DNA from: an uncultured Cohaesibacter sp.
GTDB taxonomy: Bacteria; Pseudomonadota; Alphaproteobacteria; Rhizobiales; Cohaesibacteraceae
Length of the DNA stretch: 64,000 nucleotides
Direction: 5' to 3'
Assembly: GCF_963676275.1 (NCBI RefSeq)
Contig: NZ_OY781091.1
Location: 3,760,775-3,824,774 of the forward strand
Shown here: piece by piece, positions 315 through 24,516 of the stretch
Layout: each line of letters opens with the position of its first letter
Position numbering within the stretch: the stretch's first letter is position 1
Translations under genes and position numbers: made by a program
Notes under the pieces: generated by a model
Databases searched by the model: none
What the model was told of the DNA's origin: nothing
Seen by the model: the letters and a program-made list of their open reading frames with translations, nothing else

Positions 315-440
315 GCTGACAGATCCGCGTTGGAAATGAACCTGTCAGCAGTATAGACACGTGCGCTTTTTGAGGTTACGGAAGTGTTCCAGTTCAATTC
401 AAGATAGAGATGCATTTTCACTGAGAAGGCGAGGATAGCA
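315..440 (-). promoter_or_regulatory. Divergent regulatory region with late-type dyad GGAAGTGTTCC (380-390)
   Basis: This short non-coding gap separates the gpW-like gene (- strand) from the cyclase-like gene (+ strand). The 11-mer at 380-390 differs by one base from the perfect dyad GGAACTGTTCC found before the two other late units at 12901 and 21634. On the - strand a TATACT hexamer follows 24 nt downstream. The dyad lies 66 bp before the gpW start codon. I infer a late promoter; this is not proven. Confidence 0.45.
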
Positions 441-1277
441 ATGACCGAAAAGGCCTACGAGGAGAGAGTTATTGTTTTTATTGATTTTCTAGGCTTCAAG
501 GCTTTGGTCGATAAAACCAAAACAAATCAACAAAAATTGCAAGAATTGCTGGAAGCTATGAAATCGCTGAAGGACGGAATGTCAGCCGAGCAGGAATTTG
601 TCGACAGTTGCAGTTTCTCGCAATTTTCGGACTGTGTTGTGCTGACATTTAAAATTCATGAAGAAAGTGCCGTATTCTACCTCATAAACCAGTTGGCCAT
701 CATTTGCATTGAATTGATAGATAAAGGTTTTTTATTACGCGGAGCAGTAACCGTAGGGGATTTGTATCACGATGATGACTATCTAGTAGGACCCGGAATG
801 ATCGAAGCCTACCAACTAGAAAGCCAAGTGGCAAAATTTCCCCGAATTATCATCGATCCAAGCTTGCTAGAAGTGGCGCGAGATGCTCATGGCCAACAAC
901 ACACCCCAGAGTATGAAGAGAAAAGCATAAAAAAATTCCTCAAAAAAGATAAAGATGGATGGTTGTATATAGATTATTTTTCTTTCGAAGGAGTGGTTGT
1001 TTCTGCAGGGATGGAGGAGGAGGCTTTTTCTGGTTATATTCATAGAATAGGAAAATTATGTAAGGATAATCTTGAAATTAGAAGCGTATCTGTATTTGAA
1101 AAAACTACATGGATTTTGGAAAAATACAGATGTGCAGTGAAAGAATTTCGCAATTATTATGAAAATCCAGAAACGAATAATCGAGAATACTGCCGTATAA
1201 TTGCGGGAAATTCGTTACTAAAAAAGAGAGAGAAGAGAATGAGAAATCGACTACTTCTCGATATGTTGTTCAATTAA
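441..1277 (+). CDS. Nucleotidyl-cyclase-like accessory protein (moron)
   Basis: A 278-residue soluble protein. The spacing of its motifs recalls class III adenylate/guanylate cyclase catalytic domains. FIDFLGFKAL at 13-22 has an Asp in the first metal position (D15). SFSQFSDCVVLTF at 58-70 has the second (D64). RGAVTVGDLY at 100-109 is followed by GPGMIEAYQLE at 117-127, matching the glycine-rich strand and the helix that packs on it. It is AT-rich and lies on the + strand inside a - strand tail operon, between gpV (stop 1281) and gpW (start 314), as a phage moron would. No effector gene is adjacent. It could make a cyclic nucleotide, as Pycsar cyclases do, or be a non-catalytic relative of the fold. 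The start ATG is preceded by GCGAGGATAGCA. Confidence 0.6.
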   Translation: MTEKAYEERVIVFIDFLGFKALVDKTKTNQQKLQELLEAMKSLKDGMSAEQEFVDSCSFSQFSDCVVLTFKIHEESAVFYLINQLAIICIELIDKGFLLRGAVTVGDLYHDDDYLVGPGMIEAYQLESQVAKFPRIIIDPSLLEVARDAHGQQHTPEYEEKSIKKFLKKDKDGWLYIDYFSFEGVVVSAGMEEEAFSGYIHRIGKLCKDNLEIRSVSVFEKTTWILEKYRCAVKEFRNYYENPETNNREYCRIIAGNSLLKKREKRMRNRLLLDMLFN

Positions 1278-1280
1278 ATA

Positions 1281-1811
1281 TCACCCCGGCACCCCAGTCT
1301 TGCTCGGTCCCGGCAGCACATCCAGATGCTTGTGATCATCCCCGACCGTCTGGCCGTTATGGGTGAAGACCCCGCCTTCTGCTTGGAAATCACCAGTTAC
1401 CTTGACATTGGCAGTAATATGCAGGTCTGAGCCTTCCATCACAGCCGAGTTGAACCCTTTGATCGTGACGTTGCCACTCGCCCGGTCTATGATCATCTCC
1501 ATGCCGCTGGCAAAGACCTTATGCTCGACACCCGGATCATCCGATGGCGCGCTGTCTTCACTGTTCCAGCAGGAGCCGAGAACGCAGCCGTCCTCGCCAT
1601 CCCAGTCAATGAGGCAATTGACTTGCTCGCCGACATTGGGCATGGACCAGCTCTTGTTGGCGCCGGTTCCGCTCTGGTTGGCATTTAGCCAGAAACTGTC
1701 GGTTTCGTCTTCATCGCCAAAGGTGACGCGGATTCGCCCCTTCTTGATTTCCTTGACGGTCCCTCGCCGATAGGGCGAATTCTTCTCATTGTTGCGAAAG
1801 CGCTCAGTCAT
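1281..1811 (-). CDS. V: Baseplate assembly protein V (spike)
   Basis: 176 residues. The N-terminal part (about 10-75) has the OB-like beta pattern of Phage_base_V: YRRGTVKEIKKGRIRVTFGD, then WL and an INxL-like NCLIDWDGEDGCVLGSCWN segment. The C-terminal half is beta-rich and repetitive (VTIKGFNSAV, LHITANVKVTGDF) and ends in DDHKHLDVL, where the histidine tip of gpV spikes usually lies. The protein forms the membrane-piercing spike below the tail tube. The chosen ATG at 1811 sits one base after the gpD stop codon, so the two are translationally coupled. The open frame extends upstream inside gpD, but that part is a shadow. Confidence 0.85.
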   Translation of the reverse strand: MTERFRNNEKNSPYRRGTVKEIKKGRIRVTFGDEDETDSFWLNANQSGTGANKSWSMPNVGEQVNCLIDWDGEDGCVLGSCWNSEDSAPSDDPGVEHKVFASGMEMIIDRASGNVTIKGFNSAVMEGSDLHITANVKVTGDFQAEGGVFTHNGQTVGDDHKHLDVLPGPSKTGVPG

Positions 1812-1812
1812 C

Positions 1813-3068: not shown

Positions 3069-3071
3069 CGC

Positions 3072-3545: not shown

Positions 3546-6061
3546 CAGAACTCAAGTCTCCCGTCTTCATCCAGCTTCCGCTTGATCAGATCCACCAACA
3601 CGTCGGCATGCTCTTCAAGCATGGCTTCAAAATCAGCTTCGGAGAGCGAGGAGCCAGATCCAACCGTGATGGCTGGCGCATAATTGAGCTCGATATGTAC
3701 ACCACCTGTGGCAGTTGGCGCGCTGGAACTGTTCCCACTCGCCGCCATGGCCAGTGGGCTTGGCGAGACGGCGACGGGAGCGGATGCGGCAAGTGCAGGA
3801 GACGCAGTGGCAACAGATGCTGCAAGGGCAGCGGAGGTCGCTCCCTGACGGATACGGTCTGACAGACGGGCCATTTCAGCGAGCTGACCATGATGGGCGA
3901 TGAAGCCCCCCTGTGTGGCATAGCTAAGTTCCGGTCCTCTTTCCCCGACCAACAGCGGGCCGCGTCCATAAGTGCCGCCAGAGGCGCGTGCCTGAACCTC
4001 TTCGGTTTTGCCACCACCAAGCCAGGACGGAAGTTTTGGCATCATGGAGGACAGCTTGCTGCTGATGCTGGAAACCATCTGGTCGACAAGAGACAGCATG
4101 CCATCCCACAGAGATTTGAGGATTTTGACCCCGGCATCAAACAGGTTGATGTTTGAAAATGTGTCGACAATCTTCTGAATGGCGGCAGGCAGCCCATCGG
4201 AAAGCAAAGCGGGCCAATCAAACAGGGTTTTGAGCTTTTCCCAGAAGCCAGCAAACCACTCCGAAATGGAGCCCCAGTTATTGATTACGAGTCCCAAAGG
4301 GCTCCAACTGAACAGTGCCTTGAGACCCTCCCACTCAACTTGAGCCAAGCCCTTGATGCCAGCCCAGAAGGATCCGAACCACTCGGTCAGAGCAGACCAA
4401 TTGTTGACGATGAGGCCAAGCGGTGTCCAGTCAAATAGGGTCTTGAGACCATCCCAGCCTGACTTCGCTAGTGTCTTGATACCGGGCCAGAATGATGCAA
4501 ACCACTCCGAGATTGCACCCCAATTGTTGGCGATCAGGGCAAGTGGATGCCAGGACAAATTGGACTTGAACCAATCCCATGCGCCACTGGCGAGATTGAC
4601 GATTTGATCCCAAAGGTTGCCGAACCAATCAACGATACCATTCCAATTCTGATAAATGAGATAAGCAGCGGCCGCGACGGCTGCAACGCCCGCTACAACC
4701 GCCACCACGGGCAAGGACAGTGCAGCAATGCCGGAGCCAACCAGTACTAGCCCACCGGCCAATTGCGCAAAGCCGGTGATGATGCTGGCAATGGCACCCA
4801 ACAAAGGCAGCGCGATGAACACGCCAACCAAGCGGTTCCAGCCGCCAAGAGCGTCAGCGGCTGTTTTCAGCCAACTACCAACCTGCTGGAGCACTGACCA
4901 GAGTTCTTGTCCGAATGACCAGATGGCCTGAAGGCTAGAAATGATATTGCTGCTAATTTGCTCTGCAAAGGCTTTCAGGGAACCGTCTGCCTTCATGCGA
5001 TTGAGCGTGTCGAGAAAGCCCTGCAGCTTTTCCTTGGCCCAATCAAACACGCCACTCTGAGCAATCAGAAGGCGGAATTGGAACCAATGGTCTGACATGT
5101 TCGAAAGCATGCCGTTCCATGTCCGAGACATTTTCTCGGATGCTCCGGAGGCACGGTCAGCCATCAGATCAACGAGCTTGGAGATGACGTCCTTGCCCAA
5201 TTCTCCGGCTGACGCCAGTTTCTGAAGCTGGGCTGCGCTTTTGCCTGTTGCCTTTGACAACATATCCCAGACAGGAATGCCGCGCTCAACCATCTGGTTG
5301 ATTTCTTCGGTTTGCAGCTTGCCCTTTGTCCAGGCTTGGCCAACCGCCATAATGATGCCTTGGAGTGTCTCTGCGCCACCACCTGACATGGCCAGAGTAT
5401 CGACCAAGGCGCGCATGGAGCCGTTTGTCGGATCGATGCCGTAAACCTTGAGCTGGCGATAGGCTTCGATCACCTCTGGCAATTCCAGAGGTGTTTTGGC
5501 TGCGAAGTCAGTGATCCAGCCCATAGCCCGCTTTGCTTTTGCACTGGATTTCTCAAGCGCTTCAAGCTGAACCATATAGGTTTCAACCTGGGCCGCTGGG
5601 CCAATGACCATGTTGGCGGCACCTGCAGCAGCCCCGGCTGCACCAAGGCCAAGCCCACCCGCAACCAGAGCACCACGGGCCACCTTGCCAAGGCCGGATT
5701 TCATCAGGCCTGCGCCGTTTCGGATGCGGGCAAGCGCTTGCTTGAGACTGAAGACTTTGCTAATGGCTGTGGAGATGGAACCGGTAAAGCGCCCCATCGC
5801 AGCGATTGCATTGCTGATGGTCCCGCCTAGTGCAGCAGATGTTGCCTTAAGAGAGGCCATCAAGCGATTGGAGCGCTCAACCTGAGAAGCAAACTTGCCT
5901 TGCGCTGCGGCCTGCGCCGTGGTCTGTCCGGCTTGGGATCGCGCAAGCCTCCCTTGAGCCTTGTTGGCCTTTTCCAACTTCTGATTGGCACGCAGCAACT
6001 TGGCCATGCGCTTTGACGCACGATCCGTAAAGTCTGCAACAATGCCAAGGCGCATGGACAT
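3545..6061 (-). CDS. Tail tape measure protein
   Basis: 838 residues. The N-terminal 130 residues are alanine/lysine-rich helices. A TP901-type tape-measure core follows (IVPAAQ-like IGPAAQVETYMVQLEALEKSSAKAK, then MVERGIPVWDMLSKATGKSAAQLQKL at about 255-280). Hydrophobic segments lie near 415-470. Three tandem 41-residue tryptophan-rich repeats follow (W-x-P-L-x-L-I-x-N-N-W ... EWF ... FW ... IK), and the C-terminus is Ala/Ser/Pro-rich. The protein sets tail length and is ejected with the DNA. Its place directly downstream of the two-frame tail chaperone is the usual order. A GGAACTGTTCC 11-mer at 3725-3735 lies inside the coding region. Confidence 0.92.
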   Translation of the reverse strand: MSMRLGIVADFTDRASKRMAKLLRANQKLEKANKAQGRLARSQAGQTTAQAAAQGKFASQVERSNRLMASLKATSAALGGTISNAIAAMGRFTGSISTAISKVFSLKQALARIRNGAGLMKSGLGKVARGALVAGGLGLGAAGAAAGAANMVIGPAAQVETYMVQLEALEKSSAKAKRAMGWITDFAAKTPLELPEVIEAYRQLKVYGIDPTNGSMRALVDTLAMSGGGAETLQGIIMAVGQAWTKGKLQTEEINQMVERGIPVWDMLSKATGKSAAQLQKLASAGELGKDVISKLVDLMADRASGASEKMSRTWNGMLSNMSDHWFQFRLLIAQSGVFDWAKEKLQGFLDTLNRMKADGSLKAFAEQISSNIISSLQAIWSFGQELWSVLQQVGSWLKTAADALGGWNRLVGVFIALPLLGAIASIITGFAQLAGGLVLVGSGIAALSLPVVAVVAGVAAVAAAAYLIYQNWNGIVDWFGNLWDQIVNLASGAWDWFKSNLSWHPLALIANNWGAISEWFASFWPGIKTLAKSGWDGLKTLFDWTPLGLIVNNWSALTEWFGSFWAGIKGLAQVEWEGLKALFSWSPLGLVINNWGSISEWFAGFWEKLKTLFDWPALLSDGLPAAIQKIVDTFSNINLFDAGVKILKSLWDGMLSLVDQMVSSISSKLSSMMPKLPSWLGGGKTEEVQARASGGTYGRGPLLVGERGPELSYATQGGFIAHHGQLAEMARLSDRIRQGATSAALAASVATASPALAASAPVAVSPSPLAMAASGNSSSAPTATGGVHIELNYAPAITVGSGSSLSEADFEAMLEEHADVLVDLIKRKLDEDGRLEF
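4215..4555 (-). repeat. Tandem 41-residue repeats inside the tape measure gene
   Basis: Two full copies and a partial third copy of a 123-base unit encode W-[HTS]-PLxLIxNNWxxxxEWFxxFWxxIKxL. A weaker fourth copy lies upstream (NWNGIVDWFGNLWDQI). The regular period suggests that tail length could change by unequal recombination between copies. Confidence 0.75.
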
Positions 6062-6070
6062 CAGGAATCT

Positions 6071-6621: not shown

Positions 6622-6651
6622 GGCAAGCTCCTCAGAGAAAATAGCTGATAT

Positions 6652-6682: not shown

Positions 6683-6707
6683 GTCGCTCACCATGATAAT
6701 GATGAAA

Positions 6708-7223
6708 TCAGGCCCAGAAATCGCCGGAACTGTTCCCTGCACGATTGTTAAAGACATCAACTTCCAGCAGCGTCTGGTCGCTATCGTGAATGCGCTGGAC
6801 AAGGCGGGAGCAGGAAAACTCCAGAGGGATATCTTCATTTTCCCCAAGAGAGACTTCCTGATGCTCATAGCCGGTAACACGCATGGTAAGGATCGAGATG
6901 CGTGTGAAAGACCGGTCCGCATCATATCCGTCTTCATTATTTACATCGACATATTGATGAAACTGAAGCTTTTGCGATTTTGTCGGATTGAAGAATGCAG
7001 CCATCAGATCCGGCTCAAAGAAGCTCATTGTGAAAGAGCCGCTCAAAGCTTCCAGAACACGGGTTGGCGGCTCATAGACCGCGACCTGACCAAGCGTCTC
7101 GATAGAAACGGTTTTCCATTTGATGGCCGGTAGCTGAAAGCTCTTGGCGATGCCAATCAGGCTGTTGTCTTCAAGATAAACATCAGACTGAACCGATTGG
7201 CCGTACCGACGATAATCTGTCAT
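6708..7223 (-). CDS. Major tail tube protein
   Basis: 171 residues of the contractile-tail tube family (P2 FII type). Landmarks are LPAIKWKTVSIETLGQVAVYEP, the SFTMSFFEPDLMAAFFNP segment and a GYEHQEVSLGENEDIPLEFSCS strand pair. The protein polymerises as the inner tube inside the sheath. It lies directly downstream of the sheath gene. Its last codons contain a GGAACTGTTCC 11-mer (6726-6736, + strand reading), one of the dyads also found before late units; here it is coding. Confidence 0.9.
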   Translation of the reverse strand: MTDYRRYGQSVQSDVYLEDNSLIGIAKSFQLPAIKWKTVSIETLGQVAVYEPPTRVLEALSGSFTMSFFEPDLMAAFFNPTKSQKLQFHQYVDVNNEDGYDADRSFTRISILTMRVTGYEHQEVSLGENEDIPLEFSCSRLVQRIHDSDQTLLEVDVFNNRAGNSSGDFWA

Positions 7224-7242
7224 TGCCTTGCTCCTTTATCGG

Positions 7243-10276: not shown

Positions 10277-11215
10277 TCAGGCTGAGGTGGCGTTCCGGAT
10301 CAGAAAGCCTGCCTTGTTGGCAATGATCAGTTCCTTGACGCTCTCGCCAGACCGGACCAGCTTGCCGCCATAAAGCCCCATATTGGCAGGAAGCGTTCCG
10401 GCAACTTTCTTGCCGACCTGCGCCGTGTAGCCAAAGGTCAAACCTCCGGTGGTGTCGGCGGTGCGGTTGATGAACTGGCCAGAAACCGAGTTGCCCCAGA
10501 CCCGCACCAGCTCGGGATCTTCACCGGGCTTGTTGATATTGACGCGACCTTCACCGACCAGCACCCGCTTGACGCCGATCAGTTCGGCAAACTGGGCCTG
10601 CGTGACGCGACCGCTATCTCCGCTATTGCCATGCACGGCTTTTACCACAATCGGGTTTTTGCGCACCGCAAACCACGGCTTGTGCCCGAAGGTGATCTGG
10701 TTGGGCTTGATCCAGCAGGAGGCCATCAGGTCTTCAATGATGGTGAGTGGATCAGACGCGGGATCGTCAAAGAGATCGGTTCCGGCCAGCGTTTCAACCA
10801 GACTGTCATCATATTGGGATGCATCGGTCACCAGACTGGCAACCCGCACTTCCCGGCCTAGAATAACAATGTCGGTTGCCCGTTCCGTTGCCCGATGCTC
10901 GGGATTGAAGCCATTCTTCTTGGCTTCATCAATCGTGACCTGGTCCAGAGGTACGTCGATGCCGAAATCCTCAACCGATGAATCCTTCTCGGTCCCTTCG
11001 ATCTCGACCTGGTTCGGCGTTGAACGACGCCCGACCTTCGTGTCCGGCAAGGTGAAGGCTTCCGCTTCGTTGTAGGACTGATATTTGAAGTTGCGGGCAG
11101 ACGGCACGCGAGGCAACACATCGTCAGCAATGAGACTGTAATCGGGGTTTCGGTATGAGACCGCGATATTGGTCAGCGTCGGGCTCGGGGCAAATTGGTC
11201 CGTAGCTGTGGCCAT
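10277..11215 (-). CDS. Major capsid protein
   Basis: 312 residues, located between the decoration-like protein and the gp35 homologue as in Mu-like phages. The N-terminus has the common coat-protein pattern LTNIAVSYRNPDYSLIADDVLPRVP followed by an E-loop-like AFTLPDTKVGRRSTPNQVEIEG. Mid-protein are DPLTIIEDLMA and TFGHKPWFAVRKNP, typical of Mu-type HK97-fold shells. The RBS is a GAAAGG about 7 nt upstream. Confidence 0.85.
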   Translation of the reverse strand: MATATDQFAPSPTLTNIAVSYRNPDYSLIADDVLPRVPSARNFKYQSYNEAEAFTLPDTKVGRRSTPNQVEIEGTEKDSSVEDFGIDVPLDQVTIDEAKKNGFNPEHRATERATDIVILGREVRVASLVTDASQYDDSLVETLAGTDLFDDPASDPLTIIEDLMASCWIKPNQITFGHKPWFAVRKNPIVVKAVHGNSGDSGRVTQAQFAELIGVKRVLVGEGRVNINKPGEDPELVRVWGNSVSGQFINRTADTTGGLTFGYTAQVGKKVAGTLPANMGLYGGKLVRSGESVKELIIANKAGFLIRNATSA

Positions 11216-11662: not shown

Positions 11663-12181
11663 TTAGTCGATGGGCAACCTGTGCTTCTTGCGCACAGTCA
11701 CCACTGCATCCGAGGTGGACACTTCAATCCCTGCCGAACGCTGACTTTCCTGAAACGCAATGGCCTCCTGCGCGATCTGATCATCGCTGACGCCATCCGG
11801 GTTCAGGTCATCGCCAAGATCCATCTCGCCAAACTGGACGATTTGCGGCTGGGTCTTGAGCACATCCTTGAGGAGATCGACCAGATCGGCCTTCTTGGTC
11901 TCAGCGCCATCGGCAAACTCGATTTCGTCGGCATCTAGATCTGACGCCCCATCCAGCAGAGCGACAACCTTGGCACGGTTGCCCGATGGAAGCCTTCCAC
12001 CATCGACAAGGCTTTCAGCAAAGGCGATATGATCAGCATGACGCTGCTCCGCTTCGCGTTCATCAAGCGCCGCCTGACGGGCATCCAGCTCGGCTTCACG
12101 TTCAGCAAAGGCAGCAATCTGATCAGCATCATCCTGACCAAGCTCGGGGGCAGTACGAGATTTTGCAGGCTTGAGGGCCAT
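11663..12181 (-). CDS. Nested capsid scaffold (Mu gpZ-like)
   Basis: An in-frame ATG (residue 221 of the protease) is preceded by GAGGATGATGAC, a strong ribosome-binding site with good spacing. It would yield the 172-residue scaffold alone. This is the Mu I/Z arrangement. I infer the separate product from the RBS and family precedent. Confidence 0.65.
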   Translation of the reverse strand: MALKPAKSRTAPELGQDDADQIAAFAEREAELDARQAALDEREAEQRHADHIAFAESLVDGGRLPSGNRAKVVALLDGASDLDADEIEFADGAETKKADLVDLLKDVLKTQPQIVQFGEMDLGDDLNPDGVSDDQIAQEAIAFQESQRSAGIEVSTSDAVVTVRKKHRLPID

Positions 12182-12841
12182 GTCATCATCCTCACTATGT
12201 TCGTTTTCGGAAAATTCGGGGGAACTGGTCGTGGGCGGCACATCGCCAGCCTCATCAATCCAGCGAATGGAATAGTCGGGCAGGATATTGTCCGCAGTCT
12301 CGATCCCGTCCTTCTCGATCAGCCATTCGCGGAAGCGGCGAAACAGGCTGGCCACATCCTTGAAGGCGACATCGGAGAATTCGATGGCGATGGCGTCTTC
12401 ATCATCCCCGGCGAACTCAACCGGCTTTAGACCAGGAACAGCGGGGGCAACAGCGCCAAGGAACCCGACATGTTTGGGATAGAGCGCATCACCGGCAGGG
12501 TTGGACGTAGCCCCCGGCTTGTAAAAGGACATGGAAATGCGCTTGTAGCGGCCACCCTCGACCGCGTCAGAGAACTGCGGCTCCAGCTCGCCGATGTCGG
12601 CATAGAGCCGGTCAGCCTCGTCATCATAGGAAAAGGCTTTCACCCAACCATAGGCAGGATCGTCAGTTTTGGGATGACCAACCACGACAGGCACAGGACA
12701 GAGCTGAGGATCATAACGCTCAGCCAGATCAGCCAGATCTTCAGCCGTCGCGCTGAACGCCGTACCGCCCATCGCCGTAAACGTGCCCGGACGGAACACC
12801 TCAATGCGCTTCGTTTTGTCTTTGTCATCTACCTTGGCCAC
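11663..12841 (-). CDS. Prohead protease with scaffold (Mu gpI-like)
   Basis: 392 residues starting at a GTG with AAGGAG five bases upstream. The N-terminal domain (1-215) matches Mu gpI proteases: VEVFRPGTFTAMGG-like opening, VPVVVGHPKTDDPAYGWVKAF and RYKRISMSFY. The last contains the conserved serine region. The C-terminal part (221-392) is a charged coiled-coil scaffold with AEREAELDARQAALDEREAEQ. The scaffold is also encoded separately by an internal start. It opens the second late transcription unit, with a dyad 60 bp upstream. Confidence 0.85.
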   Translation of the reverse strand: MAKVDDKDKTKRIEVFRPGTFTAMGGTAFSATAEDLADLAERYDPQLCPVPVVVGHPKTDDPAYGWVKAFSYDDEADRLYADIGELEPQFSDAVEGGRYKRISMSFYKPGATSNPAGDALYPKHVGFLGAVAPAVPGLKPVEFAGDDEDAIAIEFSDVAFKDVASLFRRFREWLIEKDGIETADNILPDYSIRWIDEAGDVPPTTSSPEFSENEHSEDDDMALKPAKSRTAPELGQDDADQIAAFAEREAELDARQAALDEREAEQRHADHIAFAESLVDGGRLPSGNRAKVVALLDGASDLDADEIEFADGAETKKADLVDLLKDVLKTQPQIVQFGEMDLGDDLNPDGVSDDQIAQEAIAFQESQRSAGIEVSTSDAVVTVRKKHRLPID

Positions 12842-13177
12842 ACCGCATCTCCTTGAAACAGGGTGATGGCAACATGGCAGATAAAATGACAGCGCTCGCC
12901 GGAACTGTTCCGGGTGCTGTCATCGCTGGTTTTTATCGAGAATTTGACGCCCTTCTATCACCAACCGCAACGAGGGGGCAACCCATAAGCGTAGATAGCC
13001 TCGATGTGGCTCTCTAACGCGCCTTTAACGCGGGGTGATGCGTGGTTTTGGTACCAGCATTTATCAAAGGTAATTATTCTCGTGTTTCCACCTTATGTGA
13101 ACAATCGCAAGGCATTGAATAATGGGGTTAAGGGAAATAAATTGCATATATGGTGCATGTCTATCCAAAGGTGCAAA
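12842..13177. promoter_or_regulatory. Divergent region between protease unit and RES gene, with dyad GGAACTGTTCC (12901-12911)
   Basis: The perfect 11-bp dyad lies 60 bp before the protease start codon. It shares the extended core GCCGGAACTGTTCC with the copy before the lysis unit (21631). On the - strand it is followed by GGCG and an AT-rich CATTTTAT that could be a -10 element. The remaining 260 bases lead to the RES gene and hold no convincing ORF. Confidence 0.5.
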
Positions 13178-14005
13178 ATGTTTGCTTCTAATATTCATGA
13201 AGATGAGATTGAAAGAAGAATTGATATTTTTCGCGATGAGGCCCAAAAGAGTCTATCTGATAACGATATAGTCAATAAAATTTGTTCCATTTTCGGAGAC
13301 GCATATAGCTTTCCAACCGTATCCGGTTTTTATGACGTTGGAACAGAGTTTTTTCGAGCCAGACCGATCGGTGATGATGATCACAAATTTCCTTTGAAGA
13401 GCATGCAGCACGTCGGGGATGCATGGGAAAAACCAGCCGATATGGTAGAAACTCAAGGACGTCTCAATGGCATTAGGAAAAGCGTATTATACTGCTGCCC
13501 TAATAACCCATTTCTTGCAATTGAAGAATCAGGAGCAAGTGCGAACAAACACGTTTCCGTGATTGTTTATCGCGCAAAAAAGCCAATTAAATGTGCGGTT
13601 CTTGGCTGTTATGAAGAATCTCAACTACCAAAAGACAAAATGACCCGCTTATTTTATTCCTTTCTTGAAGAAGAATTTAGTCAAGTCGTCAAAGAAGGTG
13701 AAGAGAGTCGTTATGCAATCACCCGAGTTATAGCGGAAACTTTTTTCAGTTATCCAAATCAAGATGCGTGGTCCTATCGGTCGGTAAAATCACGATCTAT
13801 GTGGAATGTCGCGTTTTTGCAAGGAAAACAGAAAGAATGTCTAGAACTGATCGGAGTCATGCTTTGCGATATAGGAACCACTTCCCGAGAAGCTTTGCAT
13901 GTTAAAATGGTTGTCGATTTCGATCAAAAGTCAGGAAAAGCCAAATACCATGCTGTCGGTTCAGAACAGCAAAAGAAACTCTTCCCTAAAATTTCCCAGA
14001 ACTGA
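13178..14005 (+). CDS. RES-domain protein (moron, likely NAD-targeting toxin fold)
   Basis: 275 residues from the ATG at 13178, which has AAAGG six bases upstream; an open frame reaches back to 13004 without a better site. The RES triad is visible: R60 in EFFRARP, GRLN at 94-97 (the GRWN motif), E116-E117 in FLAIEESG, and S202 in SYRSVKSRSMWN. RES toxins such as MbcT degrade NAD+ with an ADP-ribosyltransferase-like fold. The 55-residue N-terminal helical extension is not typical of the toxin-antitoxin members. No antitoxin gene is adjacent. It is AT-rich and transcribed against the surrounding head genes. It probably acts in host defence or exclusion. Confidence 0.7.
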   Translation: MFASNIHEDEIERRIDIFRDEAQKSLSDNDIVNKICSIFGDAYSFPTVSGFYDVGTEFFRARPIGDDDHKFPLKSMQHVGDAWEKPADMVETQGRLNGIRKSVLYCCPNNPFLAIEESGASANKHVSVIVYRAKKPIKCAVLGCYEESQLPKDKMTRLFYSFLEEEFSQVVKEGEESRYAITRVIAETFFSYPNQDAWSYRSVKSRSMWNVAFLQGKQKECLELIGVMLCDIGTTSREALHVKMVVDFDQKSGKAKYHAVGSEQQKKLFPKISQN

Positions 14006-14682: not shown

Positions 14683-15931
14683 AGTTTTCGTCAGCAGACG
14701 TAGCGCGACGGAACAACAGTGCCCCACGACGCCATGTATTGATCTGGTTGAGGTTTGGTTTTCGCTTGCGGCCTGTTTCTGCATTGTAGATGGTGGTGCC
14801 ATTCCAACCATCCTGCCCCCATTCAAAGACACTGAGACCGGCCAGATTGGGCGAAGCCCGAAGATAACGGCGTTTCAATACCCATTTCTTGAGATGGCTA
14901 TGCCATTCCCAATCCACCCAGATCTCGTCTGGATCCTTGAGAGCTTCAGCGAGGCGCAAGAGTTGAACAGAGCGGGAGGAATTGAGTTTGATGAAGCCAT
15001 CATGGCGTTTAAACAGTTCCTCGCCGACAACAAGCACTTGGCCAGCTTTATCCCTAAACAGGACGGGCTCACTTTCATCCGCACCGAACGTGGACAGGAA
15101 CGCCGAAACATAGTCCGCATCCTCCAGTCCTTTGGGAAGCACTTCAGCTTGCACGGGACGCGCAATTGCTTTCATATCAGGAAGAGGATCGATGTGGGGC
15201 AAGGTGAGTTGTTTTGGGTTACTGAGCTGCAACTCACGCGGAATGGTTCCGTCCGCCCATGTTCGTCCTGGCGCATAGGCCCAGCCCATGTCTACACCGG
15301 CAGGATAATCAATCTCTTCTCCTGTGCCTGGATCGCTTCGGCGTACATGCTGGATGGACGGTGCGGTATCCGGAGCCTCCTTGCCCATCCGTTTGAGCTT
15401 GGCGCGACTGACAGGGCGCACGCCGCACCCGCATTTCCAACCATTGGGCGGGAAATAGGTCTGCCACCATGGATCATCAGCCCGAAGGATCAGGCCATCC
15501 CATGCTTCATGCTCCTCGCGTGGATGAAGCGGGATGCGTTCCCATGCATGCTTATACTGCCAATAGGGAAAGGCCTTAAGCGTGGCCGGATCGGTCATCT
15601 GCTTGTAGCGACCGGCGGCGTAGGCGGTTTTCAGGTTGGTCTCGTAGATGACACGGGCACGCCAGTTACGCCCCCCTTTATAATCCCAACCATGCTTTTT
15701 AACGATCTCGTCAAAGCGATCAATGAAACCGGGATGGTAGCTATCGTCTTTATCGAGCCAGCCCTTGAGCGGCATTCCCTTGGCAATTGCATCATCAATA
15801 GCCTGCTGGAAGTCTTCCAACAGCGCATCCTTTTGCGCACCGGCCACAACAAAAGAGCGATCATGGCCATGATGGAGCAGATCGGACCAGGTGCGGGTTG
15901 GCAGGCGCACTTTCTGGCGATGGAAGTCCAA
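14681..15931 (-). CDS. MuF-type head morphogenesis protein with C-terminal PBECR-like nuclease domain
   Basis: 416 residues counted from a TTG. Residues 1-190 are the MuF/SPP1 gp7 minor head domain (PTRTWSDLLHHGHDRSFVVAG; RARVIYETNLKTAYAAGRYKQM; HPREEHEAWDG; PPNGWKCGCGVRPV). Residues about 270-410 resemble phage Barnase-EndoU-ColicinE5/D-RelE-like (PBECR) domains: LRLAEALKDPDEIWVDWEWH, WVLKRRYL, and a basic tail. Such MuF-toxin fusions are a known family of phage polymorphic toxins injected with DNA. The frame has no ATG start. It stays open back through the end of the portal gene, where an A9 run offers a -1 frameshift (see findings). An alternative is initiation at TTG 15931 or ATT. Confidence 0.8.
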   Translation of the reverse strand: MDFHRQKVRLPTRTWSDLLHHGHDRSFVVAGAQKDALLEDFQQAIDDAIAKGMPLKGWLDKDDSYHPGFIDRFDEIVKKHGWDYKGGRNWRARVIYETNLKTAYAAGRYKQMTDPATLKAFPYWQYKHAWERIPLHPREEHEAWDGLILRADDPWWQTYFPPNGWKCGCGVRPVSRAKLKRMGKEAPDTAPSIQHVRRSDPGTGEEIDYPAGVDMGWAYAPGRTWADGTIPRELQLSNPKQLTLPHIDPLPDMKAIARPVQAEVLPKGLEDADYVSAFLSTFGADESEPVLFRDKAGQVLVVGEELFKRHDGFIKLNSSRSVQLLRLAEALKDPDEIWVDWEWHSHLKKWVLKRRYLRASPNLAGLSVFEWGQDGWNGTTIYNAETGRKRKPNLNQINTWRRGALLFRRATSADEN

Positions 15932-17574: not shown

Positions 17575-19217
17575 AGTCGATAGCCTCCTAACGTGCCCTG
17601 ACTGGTCGGGGCGGCAGTGGTGATACTGGTGGCGGTCAGAGTGGTGGCAGCCATTTCAATAGTGTGTTTCCAGAGCATTTCCAGACAGTCCGGCCCGTCA
17701 TCATGATCCGCCATCGGCCATTGCTGAAGCTGATCGATCAAGGTCTGCTGGCTCTTATGCAGGCGGATCGTCCCATCGGAGATCGGGATCTGAAGCCGCT
17801 CGATGCGCAGGTTCTTGTCAATGATCGGAGAGACCGGATAGGCAGGCAGGGCAAGGCCAGCATTTGCCGCCCGCTTGATCAATTCGGTGCGCAGGAATTC
17901 CTGAAACTGCACGACCTCGGCAAACCACATCTGGCATTGATATTCCCGCTGCATGGAAATGATATCAGCGATGATGAGATCCGGAACGCGACGGCGGATT
18001 GAAGCTTCCACGACATCGAGAATGGCGCTTTCCTTGTCATAGGCCCCAACCAATATGGCCGATGGGTCGCGATTGTGATTATTCTTACCAAGGGATGGGT
18101 CGACAGCGCCAAAGAACAACCAGTCCCGATTGATCCGTACCCACCATGCGATGCTCTGAAAGGGATTATCGAGCGCGAGGGGCTTGTTCTGATACTCGCT
18201 TTCAAAGGCGGCATGATCGCCCGCCCGCTCCTTCATCAGGAAAAGCAAAGAGTGATTGGCCGGCCAATTAAGAACCGCGCCCTTGTCCATCGCTTCCTTG
18301 TTGGCTGCATAGAAGGCATCAGCCTCCGGCTCGCCCTCATTGAGATAGGTTTCTTCCCATGCATCCCAGAGCGCCATATCATCCGGCCACTGGAGGATGG
18401 CGCGGAACTCAGTGACATGCCATCCGGGCTTTTTGGAATAGCGGACGATAACCGCATCAAAGTGCAAGACAGTCCCGGCATAAAGCACATCCATGGAGCC
18501 GTCGGTCGGGCCGAGCTTGAGAACGGCCTTGGCGATCCAGCTTTCCAACTTGTCGCGCTGTTTGGGGCTGGCAACATTCTCGTCGTTTTCGATATCGTCA
18601 AGGATGGCCAGGTCCGGACGATAAGGACCATGGCGACGGCCTCGGATTTTCTTGCCGGTACCGAAACCCTCCACCTTGACGTTGTTACGGGTGACGATAT
18701 CGCCCTCACGCCAGACACGGCCCTGCCCAAAGATCTCAGGGAAGTCATATTTGAGGCGCGGATTGACTTCCAGCTCGGCCTTGAGGGCTTCCAGCATCAC
18801 GGCTGCCTGTTCGAAGGCATCCATGATCAGGACAATATAATGCTTGAGCCCTCGGACGATGCACCAGAGCGGGAAAATGAGACTGATATGGGTGGATTTC
18901 GCAGACCCACGCGGCGCGATGACAAGCCGTTTTTGGCCGTCTTTCGTGGTCACCATCATCGGAAGGCCTTCATAAAGATGCTCATGCAACATGGATGGCG
19001 CTGAGGTCAGATAGTGCGGGAAATAGGTCTCGGCAAAAAAGCGATAGCCCGTCTCGGCATCCGTCACCTTCCTTTGTCTTTCGGCGCGCAAACGGGGATC
19101 AATCGGAAAGGCTTCCACCTCCAGCTCGATCTTCAGGCGGAAGGCTTCCGCCATATCGGTCAAGCCGTTCAGGAACTCCTTTGATTTGAGCTGCTTTTTA
19201 AGGGCTGGTTTGCTCAT
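17571..19217 (-). CDS. Terminase large subunit (Mu gp28-like)
   Basis: 548 residues. The N-terminal ATPase has a Walker A APRGSAKST at about 101-109 and a Walker B DLAILDDIEND near 205-214. The C-terminal RNase H-like nuclease begins with GAVDPSLGKNNHNRDPSAILVGAY, holding the first metal Asp. It packages DNA by the headful mechanism from integrated copies. It overlaps the small subunit and the portal genes by four bases on each side. Confidence 0.93.
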   Translation of the reverse strand: MSKPALKKQLKSKEFLNGLTDMAEAFRLKIELEVEAFPIDPRLRAERQRKVTDAETGYRFFAETYFPHYLTSAPSMLHEHLYEGLPMMVTTKDGQKRLVIAPRGSAKSTHISLIFPLWCIVRGLKHYIVLIMDAFEQAAVMLEALKAELEVNPRLKYDFPEIFGQGRVWREGDIVTRNNVKVEGFGTGKKIRGRRHGPYRPDLAILDDIENDENVASPKQRDKLESWIAKAVLKLGPTDGSMDVLYAGTVLHFDAVIVRYSKKPGWHVTEFRAILQWPDDMALWDAWEETYLNEGEPEADAFYAANKEAMDKGAVLNWPANHSLLFLMKERAGDHAAFESEYQNKPLALDNPFQSIAWWVRINRDWLFFGAVDPSLGKNNHNRDPSAILVGAYDKESAILDVVEASIRRRVPDLIIADIISMQREYQCQMWFAEVVQFQEFLRTELIKRAANAGLALPAYPVSPIIDKNLRIERLQIPISDGTIRLHKSQQTLIDQLQQWPMADHDDGPDCLEMLWKHTIEMAATTLTATSITTAAPTSQGTLGGYRL

Positions 19218-19714: not shown

Positions 19715-19723
19715 GGCCGGATA

Positions 19724-19930: not shown

Positions 19931-20355
19931 CAGGACTTTCTTTTCCGATAATTGAGGCCGCGAACAACCTTCTCAATTGGACGTGTGACGAAATAGGCAG
20001 AAAGGATCCAGCCAGCCCAGTCGCCGATTGGATCGGGCAGCTTGGCAACACTCCACTGGAAGTGGAACAGGCTGTCAGCGATGACTGCGCCGTAATAGGC
20101 AATGGTGGGATAGGCAAAGAGCGGACGGATCATGGCCGTGAGCCACCAGCCCTGTTCGGCAATCACAATGTCACGCGCGGCATTTCGAGCTGCGACATCC
20201 GCCTTGATCTCTTCAATGGTGACCTGCGCACCGATCTTGGTACGTTCTGTCAGACCATCAGCCTTATGCTCGAAATAGGACAGCACCCGGTCAACAATAT
20301 CGAGCCCGAAAAAGGAAAGGAGCTTGGTGCCAAGCTTGACGATCCAGCCAATCAT
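19930..20355 (-). CDS. Holin, 3TM (gene-transfer-agent type)
   Basis: 141 residues from the ATG at 20355, which overlaps the endolysin stop (ATGA). An N-terminal amphipathic helix (MIGWIVKLGTKLLSFFGLD) is followed by a helical region (QVTIEEIKADVAARNAARDIVIAEQGWW). Two hydrophobic helices follow (MIRPLFAYPTIAYYGAVIADSLF, WAGWILSAYFVTRPIEKVV). This is the pattern of the GTA holin_3TM family common in alphaproteobacterial phages and GTAs. It times lysis by making inner membrane holes. Confidence 0.78.
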   Translation of the reverse strand: MIGWIVKLGTKLLSFFGLDIVDRVLSYFEHKADGLTERTKIGAQVTIEEIKADVAARNAARDIVIAEQGWWLTAMIRPLFAYPTIAYYGAVIADSLFHFQWSVAKLPDPIGDWAGWILSAYFVTRPIEKVVRGLNYRKRKS

Positions 20356-21566
20356 CCCACATGCCTCCAGTTCTGCGCATCCATCAAGCGGCGCTGTTTG
20401 ATCTGATGGGCTACAAAGATGATGGCAAGGCCGACCAGACCAAAAGCCAGCCACTTGTTGTCAGCAATCAAAGTGAAGAGTGGTGATAGCTGCATCCGAA
20501 GAGACTGCAGAGTTGCGGTCATTTGGCCCAGACCATCAAGCAGGCCTCCGGGATCAGCCCCATCCAGTCCACCGGCAAGGGTGCCAGTTCCCAAAACTGC
20601 ACCGCCAAGCCGCGTTAGCCAATCGGCTTTCCTAACGGTGTCGGAACCGGATTTGCGCAAGTCTGCGACCGTCAGGCTATCCCGGCTATTGCCGAGCTGC
20701 AGGTTGATCGGTACAGCGACTTCGAGAGCCGACTGGGTTTTGGGGCCAACCATGCCGTCTGTCTTAAGGCCATGATCGACTTGAAAAGCCACCACTGCAC
20801 GGCGGGTAGCTGGGCCAAAATCGCTATCAACCTTGACATGATAACCTAACTCGCAGAGCCGCTCCTGCAAGGCCTTGACCATATAGCCTTCCGAGCCAAG
20901 CCGGAGCATGGTGAACCGAGCGGATGCTTTGCTCTTCCTTGCCCCTTCCGATCCGCTAAGGCGTTCATCGGCCTTGCGCATCAGGTTTGCATAATGGGTC
21001 ACCTGACCGGAGCCATTGTAACGGCGGGCAATCCCCTCCCAGTCTTTTTCGCGCAACTCGTCAGCAAGGCCGGAATTTTCAAGGAAGGACAGAAAGGCTT
21101 CGACACAATGGGTGCTGGATTGAGCCAATGCCAAGACGAATTCGGAAACAGTGCCATAGCCGCAAAGGCGATGATTGAACCCCATTCCCTGAAAGGAAGC
21201 ATAGGAAGCTGACTTCAACGCGGCCTCCTCATCGAGGCGCGCCCATTTTTCCATGAGCGTCCAGCGCTGATCGGAGCCTTTACCACCAAGGCCTTTATAG
21301 TTGGCACGAGACCATTGGCTTGCCGACAACCGCAAACTTAAGGCCTTCTTGCGCAGGCTCTTTGGCAATTGGCGATTAAAGATATGCTTTTCGGGAAGGA
21401 TGATCAGGCGACCTTGATCATCATAATCATCACCGTCACTCTCAACTTCAAGGATGGCTCGAAGAACATTGACCTCACAGCCGATACGACTGGCAAAGGC
21501 TTCAATGGTGGCTGTGATATCGGTGACTTCGCCACCGCCTTGGCGCAACTGGGCAACAACAGACAT
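20352..21566 (-). CDS. Endolysin: N-acetylmuramidase with peptidoglycan-binding domain and C-terminal membrane helix
   Basis: 404 residues from the ATG at 21566 (MSVVAQL). Residues about 15-210 form an N-acetylmuramidase (DUF3380-like) domain: ILEVESDGDDYDDQGRLIILPEKHIFNR with the catalytic Glu, then ASYASFQGMGFNHRLCGY. Residues 235-300 are a PG_binding_1 domain (LRLGSEGYMVKALQERLCELGY ... DFGPATRRAVVAFQ ... LKTDGMVGPKT). A hydrophobic helix near 375-395 (WLAFGLVGLAIIFVAHQI) ends in a basic tail, a topology unusual for a soluble endolysin. It opens the first late unit. Confidence 0.82.
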   Translation of the reverse strand: MSVVAQLRQGGGEVTDITATIEAFASRIGCEVNVLRAILEVESDGDDYDDQGRLIILPEKHIFNRQLPKSLRKKALSLRLSASQWSRANYKGLGGKGSDQRWTLMEKWARLDEEAALKSASYASFQGMGFNHRLCGYGTVSEFVLALAQSSTHCVEAFLSFLENSGLADELREKDWEGIARRYNGSGQVTHYANLMRKADERLSGSEGARKSKASARFTMLRLGSEGYMVKALQERLCELGYHVKVDSDFGPATRRAVVAFQVDHGLKTDGMVGPKTQSALEVAVPINLQLGNSRDSLTVADLRKSGSDTVRKADWLTRLGGAVLGTGTLAGGLDGADPGGLLDGLGQMTATLQSLRMQLSPLFTLIADNKWLAFGLVGLAIIFVAHQIKQRRLMDAQNWRHVG

Positions 21567-21903
21567 AACTGGCCTCGTGGAATTCGGGACGAATTTTGAG
21601 ACCAATGTCCTCTTTTATGTCTGGGGAAGCGCCGGAACTGTTCCTTGAACAAAAGAATGAAGAGCAGGTGAAATACGCGCTCTCCAAGGATAACATGTAT
21701 TGGCGCGGCAAAAACATCACTCAGCTATTGCCAGCATGTTTAATTTGAAAGAGCAAATACTGCGAATAAAGGAAAGGCAAGTTCCTCGTAACACCGCTGC
21801 TATCTGATTTTACACTAAATGATTGATGCTCTGGCTTATTATCCCGTTCTGCGATAATCTCCACCTTGAGTTGAATTTAGTATTCTTTAGGATGAATGAC
21901 CGA
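21567..21903. promoter_or_regulatory. Divergent region between lysis unit and HEPN-STAND gene, with dyad GGAACTGTTCC (21634-21644)
   Basis: The perfect dyad lies 68 bp before the endolysin start. On the - strand it reads GGAACAGTTCCGGCG and is followed 13 bases later by ACATAAAAG, a possible -10. The rest is AT-rich and leads into the HEPN-STAND gene; no other coding frame is convincing. Confidence 0.5.
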
Positions 21904-24516
21904 ATGAGTTTTCTGCCTATAAAAAAAATGCTCGAACGAGTATCTCATAATGCAACGGAGTCTGACACAACTAGGTTCTGGGAGCTCACTTATGCTGGAG
22001 AGTTTTTGATACGCCTAACTGCAGCAACGCTTGTCGCGTGTGTTGATAGGTCTCCAGATAGAGATCGATATGGATTAGAATACAAGCTAGTTCGAGCAGA
22101 TGGTATAGGCGACTGGGTACAAGCAATCGAACAGGTTTTAACAGGCCCTCCAGCATCTCACTTAAACCCTTTTGCTTATGAACTCAGAAACAGTCTTACA
22201 AAAAGAGATAAAGTTGATAGCGAGAGATCTGAAGCCATTAACCTTTTGGTGGACGTTCTCAAGAATGTGTACAACCCGGAGTTTGAGATAAGAGAGACCC
22301 CCTCATTTCGATTGTGGTTGAAATTATTTGTAACAATAAGAAATAAATCTAGAGGGCATGGGGCTCAAACTCCAGCGAAACTGAGTAGTTGCGTCGAGTC
22401 ACTAGAAAAATCTATAGATATATATATTAATTCTATAAGACTTGATGATTTTGAGTGGGCATATTTGCATAGAAACTTATCAGGAAAATATAGAGTTATA
22501 GGAATTTCAGATAATTGCGGAAGTTTCGATTTTTTAAAAACCTCAAAAGCTCAAGATAGTAAAAATTTTCAAAGCGGGTGTTATATTTGGCTATCAGAGC
22601 CGAGACGCGTTAATTTAATATATACAGATCAAGATTGTCTTGATTTTTTCTTTCCAAATGGGGATTTTAAATTAAATGACTTCGAACTTCACTCTCTTAT
22701 TTCAGACAACAGGAGAAGGCAAAGCAATACTGACTTTATGAACCCTATTGCTTCTTTGCCCCGCAGCGAAACTGAAGGGCTTTCAAGCCTCGAAGCGATT
22801 GGAAATGTTCTGACGAACATACCGGAACGGCCAAGACTTTACATTGCAAGAAAAAAATTAGAGGTTGAAGTATATAAACTTTTAGAAAACGACAGACACC
22901 CGATAATTACACTTGTTGGACGAGGTGGAATTGGAAAAACCTCTTTAACATTAAAAGTATTACACGAATTAACTTTGAATAATAGATTTGACATCATAGT
23001 CTGGTTCAGCGCAAGAGATATAGACTTAACTACAAGCGGAGCAAAAACTGTAAGACCATCCATTTTAACAGAAAAGGAAATATCAAAGCAATTTTTTGAA
23101 CTTATGGGGAAAAAACAGAATGGCAGTTCTGGAAAATTTGTATCTGAAATAGATTATATGACAAGCCAAATGGGATGTGGAGAAACTGGCCCAATTCTTT
23201 TTGTTTTTGACAACTTTGAAACGTTACGTAACCCACAAGACATTTTTGCTTGGATAGACGCTAGCATCCGCCTCCCAAATAAAGCTCTAATTACATCTCG
23301 CTTTCGTGATTTTAAGGGCGATTACCCTATCGAGATTTCTGGGATGGGGCGCTCTGAAGCGGACGAACTCATAACTGTCACATCACGTAATTTGTCTGTT
23401 GAGGGTCTATTACAATCTAGAGATAGAAACGCAATCATAGAAGAATCTGAGGGACATCCATATATAATTAAAATACTTATTGGAGAAATAGCCGATACAG
23501 GAGCCTATACTCGTCCTTCGCGGATAATGGCAAGGCGCGATGATATACTTGTCGCTCTATTTGAACGAACTTTTGGTGCATTATCACCGCTTGCAGCTCG
23601 AACATTCATGATGCTATCGCAGTGGAGATCAACGGTACCTCAGTTATTGGTTGAAGCCGTTCTTCTGAGGCATGCTGCCGAAGAAGCTATTGATCCTGAA
23701 ACTGCCATCAATCAACTGGTTAGAACTTCACTAATTGAGCGGAGTCAAGATCCGGAAGGTAGCGACCACCTACTAGTGCCGCTGTCCGCGTCCATTTTTG
23801 GTCAGTCGAAACTACAAGTGTCAGCAAGCCGTATGTTAATTTTGGATGATGTTAAATTTCTTCAGTCACTTGGAGCAAGCGATCAGAGAAAAGATGAGAA
23901 AGGTATATTTCCGAGGCTTAAAAACCTGTTCTCGAGCTTCGCTAAACGAATTGAGCACAATGAGACTTCTCTTGCGGAAAGCCGTTCGGTATTAGAGTTT
24001 ATTGCTCGCGGCTATGCAGATGCTTGGCTTCTGCTTAGCCGATTGGAAATAGACTGTGGAGAGGATGGGTGGCAAGAGAATGCAGCAGAGTACCTAAGAC
24101 GCTATCTTCAAAATGAACCGAATGGATCAAACGCATACGAAGCATGGCAAGAGCTTCAAGGACTATACATGCGCCAAGGAGATGTAGTTGCGGGCTGCGG
24201 TGCATTCCTACGAATGGCTGAATTCTCTGAACCTCCTCTTGAGAGCATTAGTTCAATGGCAAATTGGCTAAATAGTACTTTTAAAACAAATCACAATCTC
24301 ACGATAGATCAACGTTCTGCGGTATTTCTCCCTTTGGCTGAACTTATGAAGAAAAGGCTAGTTCATGCATCCGCGACTGATTTCTCGCGGCTAGGTTGGC
24401 TATTCTTGAATTGCGGGGATAAGGAAAGTGCCAAGCACTACGCACTTGAAGGCCTTAAAAGAGACGCAGGAAACACGCATTGTGCGAGGATAATTGAGCG
24501 TTTAGAGGAACGTTAG
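21904..24516 (+). CDS. HEPN-STAND ATPase with C-terminal helical repeats (putative antiphage sensor)
   Basis: 870 residues from the ATG at 21904; ATG 21892 and TTG 21823 are alternatives, but AGGA spacing favours 21904. Residues 1-190 are helical and contain RNKSRGH at 146-152, the R-x4-6-H signature of HEPN ribonucleases, in a helix (LKLFVTIRNKSRGHGAQ). A beta-rich linker follows. The STAND NTPase core has Walker A GRGGIGKT (339-346), Walker B LFVFDNFE (432-439) and an ALITSRFRD arginine motif (461-469). A winged-helix-like part and helical (TPR-like) repeats follow to the end. This domain order, effector-NTPase-sensor, is that of Avs-like and NLR-like defence proteins. The gene is AT-rich, on the strand opposite to the phage operons, between mor and the lysis unit. 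Confidence 0.75.
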   Translation: MSFLPIKKMLERVSHNATESDTTRFWELTYAGEFLIRLTAATLVACVDRSPDRDRYGLEYKLVRADGIGDWVQAIEQVLTGPPASHLNPFAYELRNSLTKRDKVDSERSEAINLLVDVLKNVYNPEFEIRETPSFRLWLKLFVTIRNKSRGHGAQTPAKLSSCVESLEKSIDIYINSIRLDDFEWAYLHRNLSGKYRVIGISDNCGSFDFLKTSKAQDSKNFQSGCYIWLSEPRRVNLIYTDQDCLDFFFPNGDFKLNDFELHSLISDNRRRQSNTDFMNPIASLPRSETEGLSSLEAIGNVLTNIPERPRLYIARKKLEVEVYKLLENDRHPIITLVGRGGIGKTSLTLKVLHELTLNNRFDIIVWFSARDIDLTTSGAKTVRPSILTEKEISKQFFELMGKKQNGSSGKFVSEIDYMTSQMGCGETGPILFVFDNFETLRNPQDIFAWIDASIRLPNKALITSRFRDFKGDYPIEISGMGRSEADELITVTSRNLSVEGLLQSRDRNAIIEESEGHPYIIKILIGEIADTGAYTRPSRIMARRDDILVALFERTFGALSPLAARTFMMLSQWRSTVPQLLVEAVLLRHAAEEAIDPETAINQLVRTSLIERSQDPEGSDHLLVPLSASIFGQSKLQVSASRMLILDDVKFLQSLGASDQRKDEKGIFPRLKNLFSSFAKRIEHNETSLAESRSVLEFIARGYADAWLLLSRLEIDCGEDGWQENAAEYLRRYLQNEPNGSNAYEAWQELQGLYMRQGDVVAGCGAFLRMAEFSEPPLESISSMANWLNSTFKTNHNLTIDQRSAVFLPLAELMKKRLVHASATDFSRLGWLFLNCGDKESAKHYALEGLKRDAGNTHCARIIERLEER

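Follow-up and report, generated by a model that had tools for sequence, protein, structure and literature searches.

Defence hotspots in prophages are already known and, as one study describes them (PMC9122126), they are small, are bounded by a pair of conserved phage genes, show high turnover and house diverse anti-phage systems. Mu-like phages of Pseudomonas aeruginosa confine accessory genes to fixed loci termed regions of genomic plasticity (RGPs), one of which, RGP G, holds anti-CRISPR genes and has a low G+C content (Cazares 2014, PMC4378225). In phage Mu itself, the late promoters lys, I, P and mom are activated by C, a single activator that serves several late units and whose site precedes the -35 region (PMC4461284). 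Here we analyse a 64,000-nucleotide stretch of DNA (the window; G000 C1:3760775-3824774, in a genome of 5.03 Mb) whose first ~31-32 kb are occupied by the greater part of a Mu-like Cohaesibacter prophage, and a short dyad, GGAANNNTTCC, that stands at the start of each of its three late units. We consider it likely that these three late-promoter junctions are independent hotspots for morons and defence genes, each beside a dyad recognized by the late activator.

The prophage resembles each of the described systems in part. Compared with the hotspots of PMC9122126, in whose available text the terms "Mu-like" and "late promoter" were not found, the present case concerns a single transposable phage with three loci, all of them placed where a late unit begins and next to a conserved dyad, and is known here from sequence alone. 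The RGPs are found for the most part in the left arm and contain chiefly open reading frames (ORFs) of 34-100 codons, according to PMC4378225, whereas the loci described here are late-unit starts and carry genes for proteins of up to 1169 amino acids. Unlike the Mu promoters activated by C (PMC4461284), those proposed here showed no -10 element at a fixed spacing, and binding by the activator is putative. A literature search on Cohaesibacter and prophages returned no description of prophages of this kind in the text available, nor did the accessible text of the best-ranked literature on Mu-like phages, late promoters, defence and hotspots mention defence cargo flanking dyads at late promoters. 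The kind of system is thus known; within the reach of these searches, the three-promoter layout and the dyad array are its new parts. The layout would also provide a rule for finding accessory, possibly new defence genes in Mu-like phages: to look beyond the late-promoter dyads.

Three late-unit starts with exchangeable cargo

Most genes of the prophage are encoded on the minus strand, among them MuA, MuB, GemA, a Mor/C-like activator, a muramidase, the terminase, portal, protease, major head protein, sheath, tape measure and baseplate genes, while a CI-like repressor is encoded on the plus strand; the remaining tail end of the prophage lies to the left of the window, in stretch L008. The late genes would form three units, for lysis and packaging, head and tail, and baseplate, in a layout much like that under the Mu promoters lys, I and P. 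The first starts with an N-acetylmuramidase (lysis) gene (20352..21566, minus strand; PF11860, 1.4e-39), the second with the head maturation protease (11663..12841, minus strand; PHROG 976, 1.3e-103), and the third, the baseplate unit, with a gene at 1..314 (minus strand) that is cut by the window start, continues in L008 and encodes 128 amino acids. From its position we take this last gene to be gpW; it has a collinear homologue in all six relatives introduced below (61-95% identity). Upstream of these starts lie the dyads of site C (21634..21644, 68 bp from the muramidase start at 21566), site B (12901..12911, 60 bp from the protease start at 12841) and site A (380..390, 66 bp from the baseplate-unit start at 314), all three on the minus strand; the unit starts and distances given by the first-pass annotation were thus reproduced on recomputation. 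Its observation that an AT-rich gene sits on the plus strand beyond each dyad also holds in the window: the three cargo stretches, which include genes at 441..1277 (A), 13178..14005 (B) and 21904..24516 (C), have a G+C content of 0.38-0.41 compared with 0.52 for the region, the differing composition expected of morons.

The first-pass annotation had proposed that late promoters are tolerated insertion points and had called for a comparison of related Mu-like prophages at the three loci. A search of 101 genomes by protease homology (66-96% identity) yielded six prophages of the same genus (G001, G002, G004, G006, G016 and G017), and the 40 kb around each was compared with the window phage; own2580 and G220 were left out of the cargo comparison. 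The genes flanking A, B and C are collinear in all seven phages, and at these same three junctions the six relatives carry different cargo, which bears out the proposal. None of the three cargo genes of the window was found in the relatives' stretches (tblastn, 1e-4), and no cargo gene is common to any two of the seven phages (blastp, 1e-3), the only between-phage cargo matches at that threshold being short frames over a conserved leader at site B. The lengths of the junctions vary by 1028 bp at A, 4715 bp at B and 2587 bp at C, more than at any other of the 34 junctions compared between gpI and g30802 in the seven phages, and 26 of the remaining 31 vary by at most 65 bp. The full gap table holds 41 junctions, of which the seven at the tail-fibre end were excluded because homologues are missing there in several phages. 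Two outliers, tailP|TMP in G002 and gpJ|gpW in G017, are probably artefacts of alignments that overlap or are incomplete.

A non-core ORF of at least 150 amino acids occupies 18 of the 21 site instances; the near-empty ones are A and C of G006, which hold only frames of 80 and 85 amino acids, and C of G017, with none of note. The pattern of one plus-strand gene per site, suggested by the window, does not extend to the relatives, in all six of which the cargo of site A lies on the minus strand, while that of site B consists of one to several genes. Likewise, the idea that the three loci form one distributed system is not supported, as nothing links the three genes of the window and no cargo gene recurs in two phages.

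Part of the cargo is recognizable as defence. At a threshold of 1e-20 or better, PADLOC matched DRT3a (4.4e-97) and DRT3b (2.5e-160) at site B of G006, HEC-08 (9.4e-95) at site A of G004 and PD-Lambda-1 (1.4e-151) at site C of G016, near-full-length matches to known or candidate systems, and the best match at site B of G002 was mad3 (5.1e-22). Other suspected defence domains are putAbiC (G017, A), RelA_SpoT (G017, B), AAA_15/21 (G002, B), a KAP NTPase (G004, B) and PIN_12 (G016, A). The first-pass annotation took all cargo to be defence, which overreaches: G001 carries a Na/Ca exchanger at B and a GGDEF-EAL protein at C, neither of them defence by name, and PADLOC matches of this quality were found for 5 of the 41 cargo ORFs scanned (5/35 of those of at least 78 amino acids in the six relatives, none of three in the window and none of three in other genera). 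All five fell among 20 selected cargo proteins, with none among the other 21. Taken together, the sequence comparisons indicate that the three junctions are independent exchange hotspots often holding defence genes, each apparently with its own history.

Some of the relatives' cargo is of interest in its own right. The DRT3-type reverse transcriptase pair of G006 (L034:14237-19443) lies beside a methyltransferase and a frame of 318 amino acids of unknown nature. At site B of G017 (L039:345-2413) a RelA_SpoT protein adjoins a relative of the nucleoid-associated protein NA37, possibly as a two-gene toxin or defence unit, and site B of G016 (L037:374-5594) spans over 5 kb and encodes a transposase, a transglutaminase and a pair of related small proteins, none of them defence by name; we presume from their appearance that the pair are cold-shock proteins.

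A conserved dyad at the proposed late promoters

The dyad is found at all three late-unit starts in each of the seven Cohaesibacter phages and in a Pseudovibrio phage. At site B it reads GGAANNNTTCC in all seven and at site C GGAACA[G/C]TTCC in all seven. At site A, where the late strand of the window phage reads GGAACACTTCC, six of the seven have GGAACACTTCCGTAACC and G017 has GGAACCCTTCCGTAACC; in the Pseudovibrio phage 19 bp are identical at this site, though the adjoining gene is only 47% identical. Because the centre of the dyad varies among aligned sites, the true element appears to be GGAANNNTTCC and the site at 380 a conserved variant of it. The first-pass annotation was thus right to place a site there, 66 bp from the start codon, but its description as a one-mismatch copy of the 11-mer GGAACNGTTCC is superseded. 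At sites A and C the dyad is also the point from which the relatives are homologous. The flank of the dyad is one-sided, a G following its late-strand end in 71% of 87 sites.

The candidate for a dyad-binding protein is the Mor/C-like late transcriptional activator encoded at 24666..25076 on the minus strand (PHROG 836, 2.9e-12; against PF08765 Mor the E-value is 0.044, under the Pfam cut-off). A single-sequence structure of this protein had a predicted local distance difference test score of 36.5 and was not used. We also looked at a wider set of 160 loci (the best 80 of 182 plus the best 80 of 384), 81 of which have a Mor-like protein. When loci that share an identical Mor end, and those whose protease start was not located, are set aside, 26 distinct phages combine such a protein with a located protease start, and in eight of these, G017 among them, a dyad lies 25-115 bp upstream of that start. 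A dyad within 2.6 kb downstream of Mor is present in seven of these eight phages compared with 1 of the 18 others. Relatives without cargo were also checked for loss of the dyad, the outcome that the first-pass annotation had named as speaking against its proposal; the dyad is kept at the cargo-free sites B of Maritalea, C of Pannonibacter and C of Pseudovibrio, which fits a late-promoter element older than the cargo. Binding of the dyad by the Mor-like protein is plausible, though covariation backs it only in part, and the dyad is most likely the site of the late activator.

We propose that each late unit starts with a promoter whose upstream element is GGAANNNTTCC, that the Mor/C-like activator of the phage would bind this element, and that late activation would proceed from the three intergenic dyads. 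Insertions would be tolerated at A, B and C because the DNA just past these promoters carries no phage function, and foreign genes could be exchanged there. The other dyads of the prophage might be further activator sites, or members of an architectural or marking array.

An array of dyads along the prophage

Exact copies of GGAACNGTTCC begin at 3725, 6726, 12901, 21634 and 28648, and with at most one mismatch there are 15 in the window compared with 1.65 expected (none of 100 shuffles reaches 15), which upholds the earlier claim that the 11-mer is not expected by chance. Of the copies first listed in coding regions, those at 3725 and 6726 are exact, while the third, given as 28668, is 20 bp off and lies at 28648. 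The whole 5.03-Mb genome contains seven copies, five in this prophage and one near another Mu-like element. Two further Mu-like elements are present in the same genome, at G000 C1:2580902-2582029 and 3142334-3142747 (L040-L043), with distant protease homologues (38% and 46%), and the latter has one GGAACAGTTCC dyad ~2.3 kb from its Mor-like gene.

Coding copies had been regarded as incidental. They turn out to be over-represented and conserved at the DNA level beyond what the proteins require. In 31 in-frame genes of the window phage there are nine copies of GGAANNNTTCC compared with 0.69 under synonymous-codon shuffles (shuffle maximum 5; none of 2000 reaches nine), and three of GGAACNGTTCC compared with 0.06 (none of 2000 reaches three), and coding dyads use all three reading frames. 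Those in the window lie on the minus strand, in the tape-measure gene (3725..3735; 180 bp upstream of the next gene, with GGAANNNTTCC at that distance in all seven Cohaesibacter phages), at the end of the gene 6708-7223 (6726..6736; 105 bp upstream of the next gene, with GGAANNNTTCC kept in all six relatives and the Pseudovibrio phage), in the major head protein gene (10389..10399, codon 273; kept in all six relatives), in the protease gene (11988..11998, codon 282; kept in two, G001 and G004), in the minor head gene at codon 228 (15240..15250; kept in four) and codon 38 (15808..15818; kept in six, the Pseudovibrio phage having one in the same gene), in the large terminase gene (19139..19149, codon 23; kept in six), in the DUF3164 gene (26399..26409, codon 68; kept in five) and near the end of the MuA transposase gene (28648..28658; 85 bp upstream of MuB, kept in five). 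In G017, 7 of 11 coding dyads are kept compared with 0.63 expected from same-frame windows; with conserved amino acids fixed, the values are 6/7 versus 1.92 in G006, 7/8 versus 2.17 in G016 and 4/4 versus 0.73 in G017. Five of the 11 coding dyads of the window phage stand 85-215 bp ahead of the following gene and might act as additional promoters.

These findings raise the possibility that the dyads form an array that is mainly architectural or self-marking, in which a phage or host protein folds, segregates or marks the prophage and the promoter copies are simply members. We regard this as an alternative, though a rather improbable one. It draws strength from abundance, from spacing and from the conservation of coding copies beyond their amino acids in all frames: across the seven phages there are 87 sites of GGAANNNTTCC compared with 6.3 expected, ranking first of 256 dyads in every phage and being the commonest 4-N3-4 word of all in each (in G016 jointly with another word), and once cargo lengths are removed the sites, which number ~1 per 2.5 kb of the core genome, show a more even spacing than random ones in all seven (coefficient of variation 0.20-0.51; P from 0/4000 to 0.0125). 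The cargo DNA, by comparison, contains no dyad in 41,686 bp where 16.4 would be expected at the core rate. Against it, the promoter copies are the most widespread in other genera; the Pseudovibrio phage has only seven dyads in the span tested, without significantly even spacing (P 0.16); an excess of GGAANNNTTCC was looked for in RcapMu, RR1-B and B3 and none was found; and the spacing tests are not independent, as the seven phages share descent. What enables genome immunity in Mu is itself described as still open in PMC7350765, with the proposal of a special structure to which particular Mu sequences contribute, so that the architectural or marking option is testable rather than idle. The recurrence of the dyad about every 2.5 kb and its conservation at the DNA level probably give it a role beyond the three promoters, and the array suggests a further architectural or self-marking one; we know of no genome-wide array of the activator site of Mu. 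A conserved, evenly spaced palindrome is, in any case, a candidate sequence signal for prophage domain formation or genome immunity.

The two roles may also be joined. In a more speculative and slightly less probable version, the GGAANNNTTCC array would serve the phage as a code for self-identity or folding, in which one protein activates late transcription at three intergenic copies and organises or marks the genome elsewhere, for example against self-insertion; the cargo, which is unmarked, would find a place only where such an intergenic copy has unoccupied DNA next to it. ParB-like binding was considered and rejected: RcapMu and RR1-B annotate a ParB-like gene yet show no excess of GGAANNNTTCC. 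In the window phage no ParB-like gene lies between the gene 30802-31260 and the CI-like gene, as no listed ORF there exceeds 103 amino acids.

Weighing the interpretations

A number of observations weigh against reading the three junctions as exchange hotspots beside activator sites. One of the excluded junctions, l15415|gpI, ranged over 1879 bp, more than site A, and others vary as well, namely g25069|g25392 (785 bp) and g25392|g25726 (885 bp) in the early region and hub|gpX (487 bp). At site B a conserved leader of ~70 bp separates the dyad from the cargo in six of the seven phages. At the three promoters, no -10 element with a constant distance to the dyad was found, the best -10-like hexamers being variably spaced. 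The family of the window's cargo A and B is unconfirmed. Among the 24 cargo proteins of 150 amino acids or more in the seven phages, PADLOC matched 5, compared with 1 of 25 prophage-flanking ORFs, numbers that are suggestive but small, and the matching control hit mad3 (1.3e-24), the same model as the G002 cargo; the prophage itself may include some control ORFs taken from left of the window. In the wider set, 18 of the 26 distinct phages have no such dyad upstream of the protease. Covariation of the Mor recognition helix with the dyad is partial and fails in L064, L145 and L147, which carry the dyad with a different helix, and the rule that the helix decides the dyad was rejected accordingly. 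Six of the 11 coding dyads lie 358-1565 bp from the next gene start. Finally, coding dyads are kept in G002 at 8/9 versus 5.02 expected with amino acids fixed, and in G001 and G004 at 10/11 versus ~6.8, with little excess; only the more distant phages carry weight for conservation.

Among the remaining alternatives, the dyads could be repressor sites that silence the prophage, in the manner of the stoperators of mycobacteriophages, dispersed arrays of repeated repressor-binding sites. The likeness lies in short sites repeated along a phage genome with a one-sided flank. The dyads, in contrast, are palindromic, evenly spaced and partly coding, and the expected operator region before the CI-like gene (31261-32280) has no GGAANNNTTCC, which makes this explanation improbable. 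The gene in question (32281..32940, plus strand), which we take from its protein to be a CI-like repressor, has one GGAANNNTTCC inside it, at 32413. Between the Ner-like and CI-like genes (32020-32281), inspection by eye shows repeated TTCGAA-like stretches that look like an operator and differ from the late dyad.

Still less probable is that the dyads are recombination or attachment sites through which the cargo was inserted. In alignments of the late-gene upstream regions, the homology among relatives at sites A and C does start at the dyad, that is, the conserved sequence ends there on the cargo side, as this explanation would have it. It is countered by the persistence of dyads where cargo is absent, by the many dyads in genes without insertions, by a far cargo edge that has no sequence common to the phages, by the lack of dyads within the cargo, and by the ~70 bp between dyad and breakpoint at site B in six of seven phages. 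That codon use or Glu-x-Phe protein motifs yield the coding copies by chance is hardly credible, for although several of them read GAA NNN TTC in frame, the excess persists under synonymous shuffling, all three frames are used, and the pattern occurs 162 times in the 5.03-Mb genome compared with 114 for its reversed control.

Cargo proteins of the window and neighbouring genes

Domain labels given earlier to the three cargo genes of the window, HEPN-STAND, RES and cyclase-like, stand in part: STAND is confirmed by an NB-ARC match, while HEPN is unconfirmed, the RES match is under its cut-off and the cyclase is without a family match. Cargo C (21904..24516, plus strand) encodes a STAND NTPase (NB-ARC 3e-8, above the Pfam cut-off) with weak TPR matches. 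No Pfam match was found in its N-terminal 314 amino acids, where we take the motif RNKSRGH to be HEPN-like, and it was matched in only its own genome among 18 of the genus.

Cargo B (13178..14005, plus strand; 275 amino acids, with the frame open from 13004) encodes a RES-like protein, putatively a NAD-acting toxin or defence protein. Against Pfam RES it scores an E-value of 0.023 and 15.2 bits, under the curated cut-off of 23.2, and two of its homologues gave no Pfam match. The elements FxRxR, GRxN, LY, EE and QDAW are conserved in three homologues and presumably fit a RES protein. Only its own genome was matched among 385 of the class sampled. On a Listeria plasmid (L127:6064-8569), a RES-like homologue lies after a DUF1643 gene and before one for a ToxN/AbiQ toxin.

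Cargo A (441..1277, plus strand) encodes a protein of 278 amino acids in which D15, L17-G18-F19 and S63-D64 are invariant in six homologues; we take these residues to be cyclase-like. At the limits used, Pfam, PADLOC and NCBIfam gave no cyclase match, the only Pfam match being weak and unrelated. One homologue lies directly after the anti-phage sirtuin Dsr1 on an Agrobacterium plasmid and another after AbiEii, and further ones adjoin metal-resistance, integrase or replication genes; within the genus, it was matched in 1 of 18 genomes, its own. PDB sequence searches with the three cargo proteins returned no credible match, scans of viral contigs with the head protein and the RES-like and cyclase-like proteins and of genome contigs with the protease returned no relatives, and consensus scans of the cargo for promoters and terminators exceeded the site counts of shuffled sequence by no more than one standard deviation. 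A defence role for the window's own three genes is only suggested by their features.

Outside the late units, a D12-class adenine methyltransferase gene lies by the tail end of the prophage (L008:13253-14131) and carries a dyad; RR1-B also has an adenine methyltransferase near its end.

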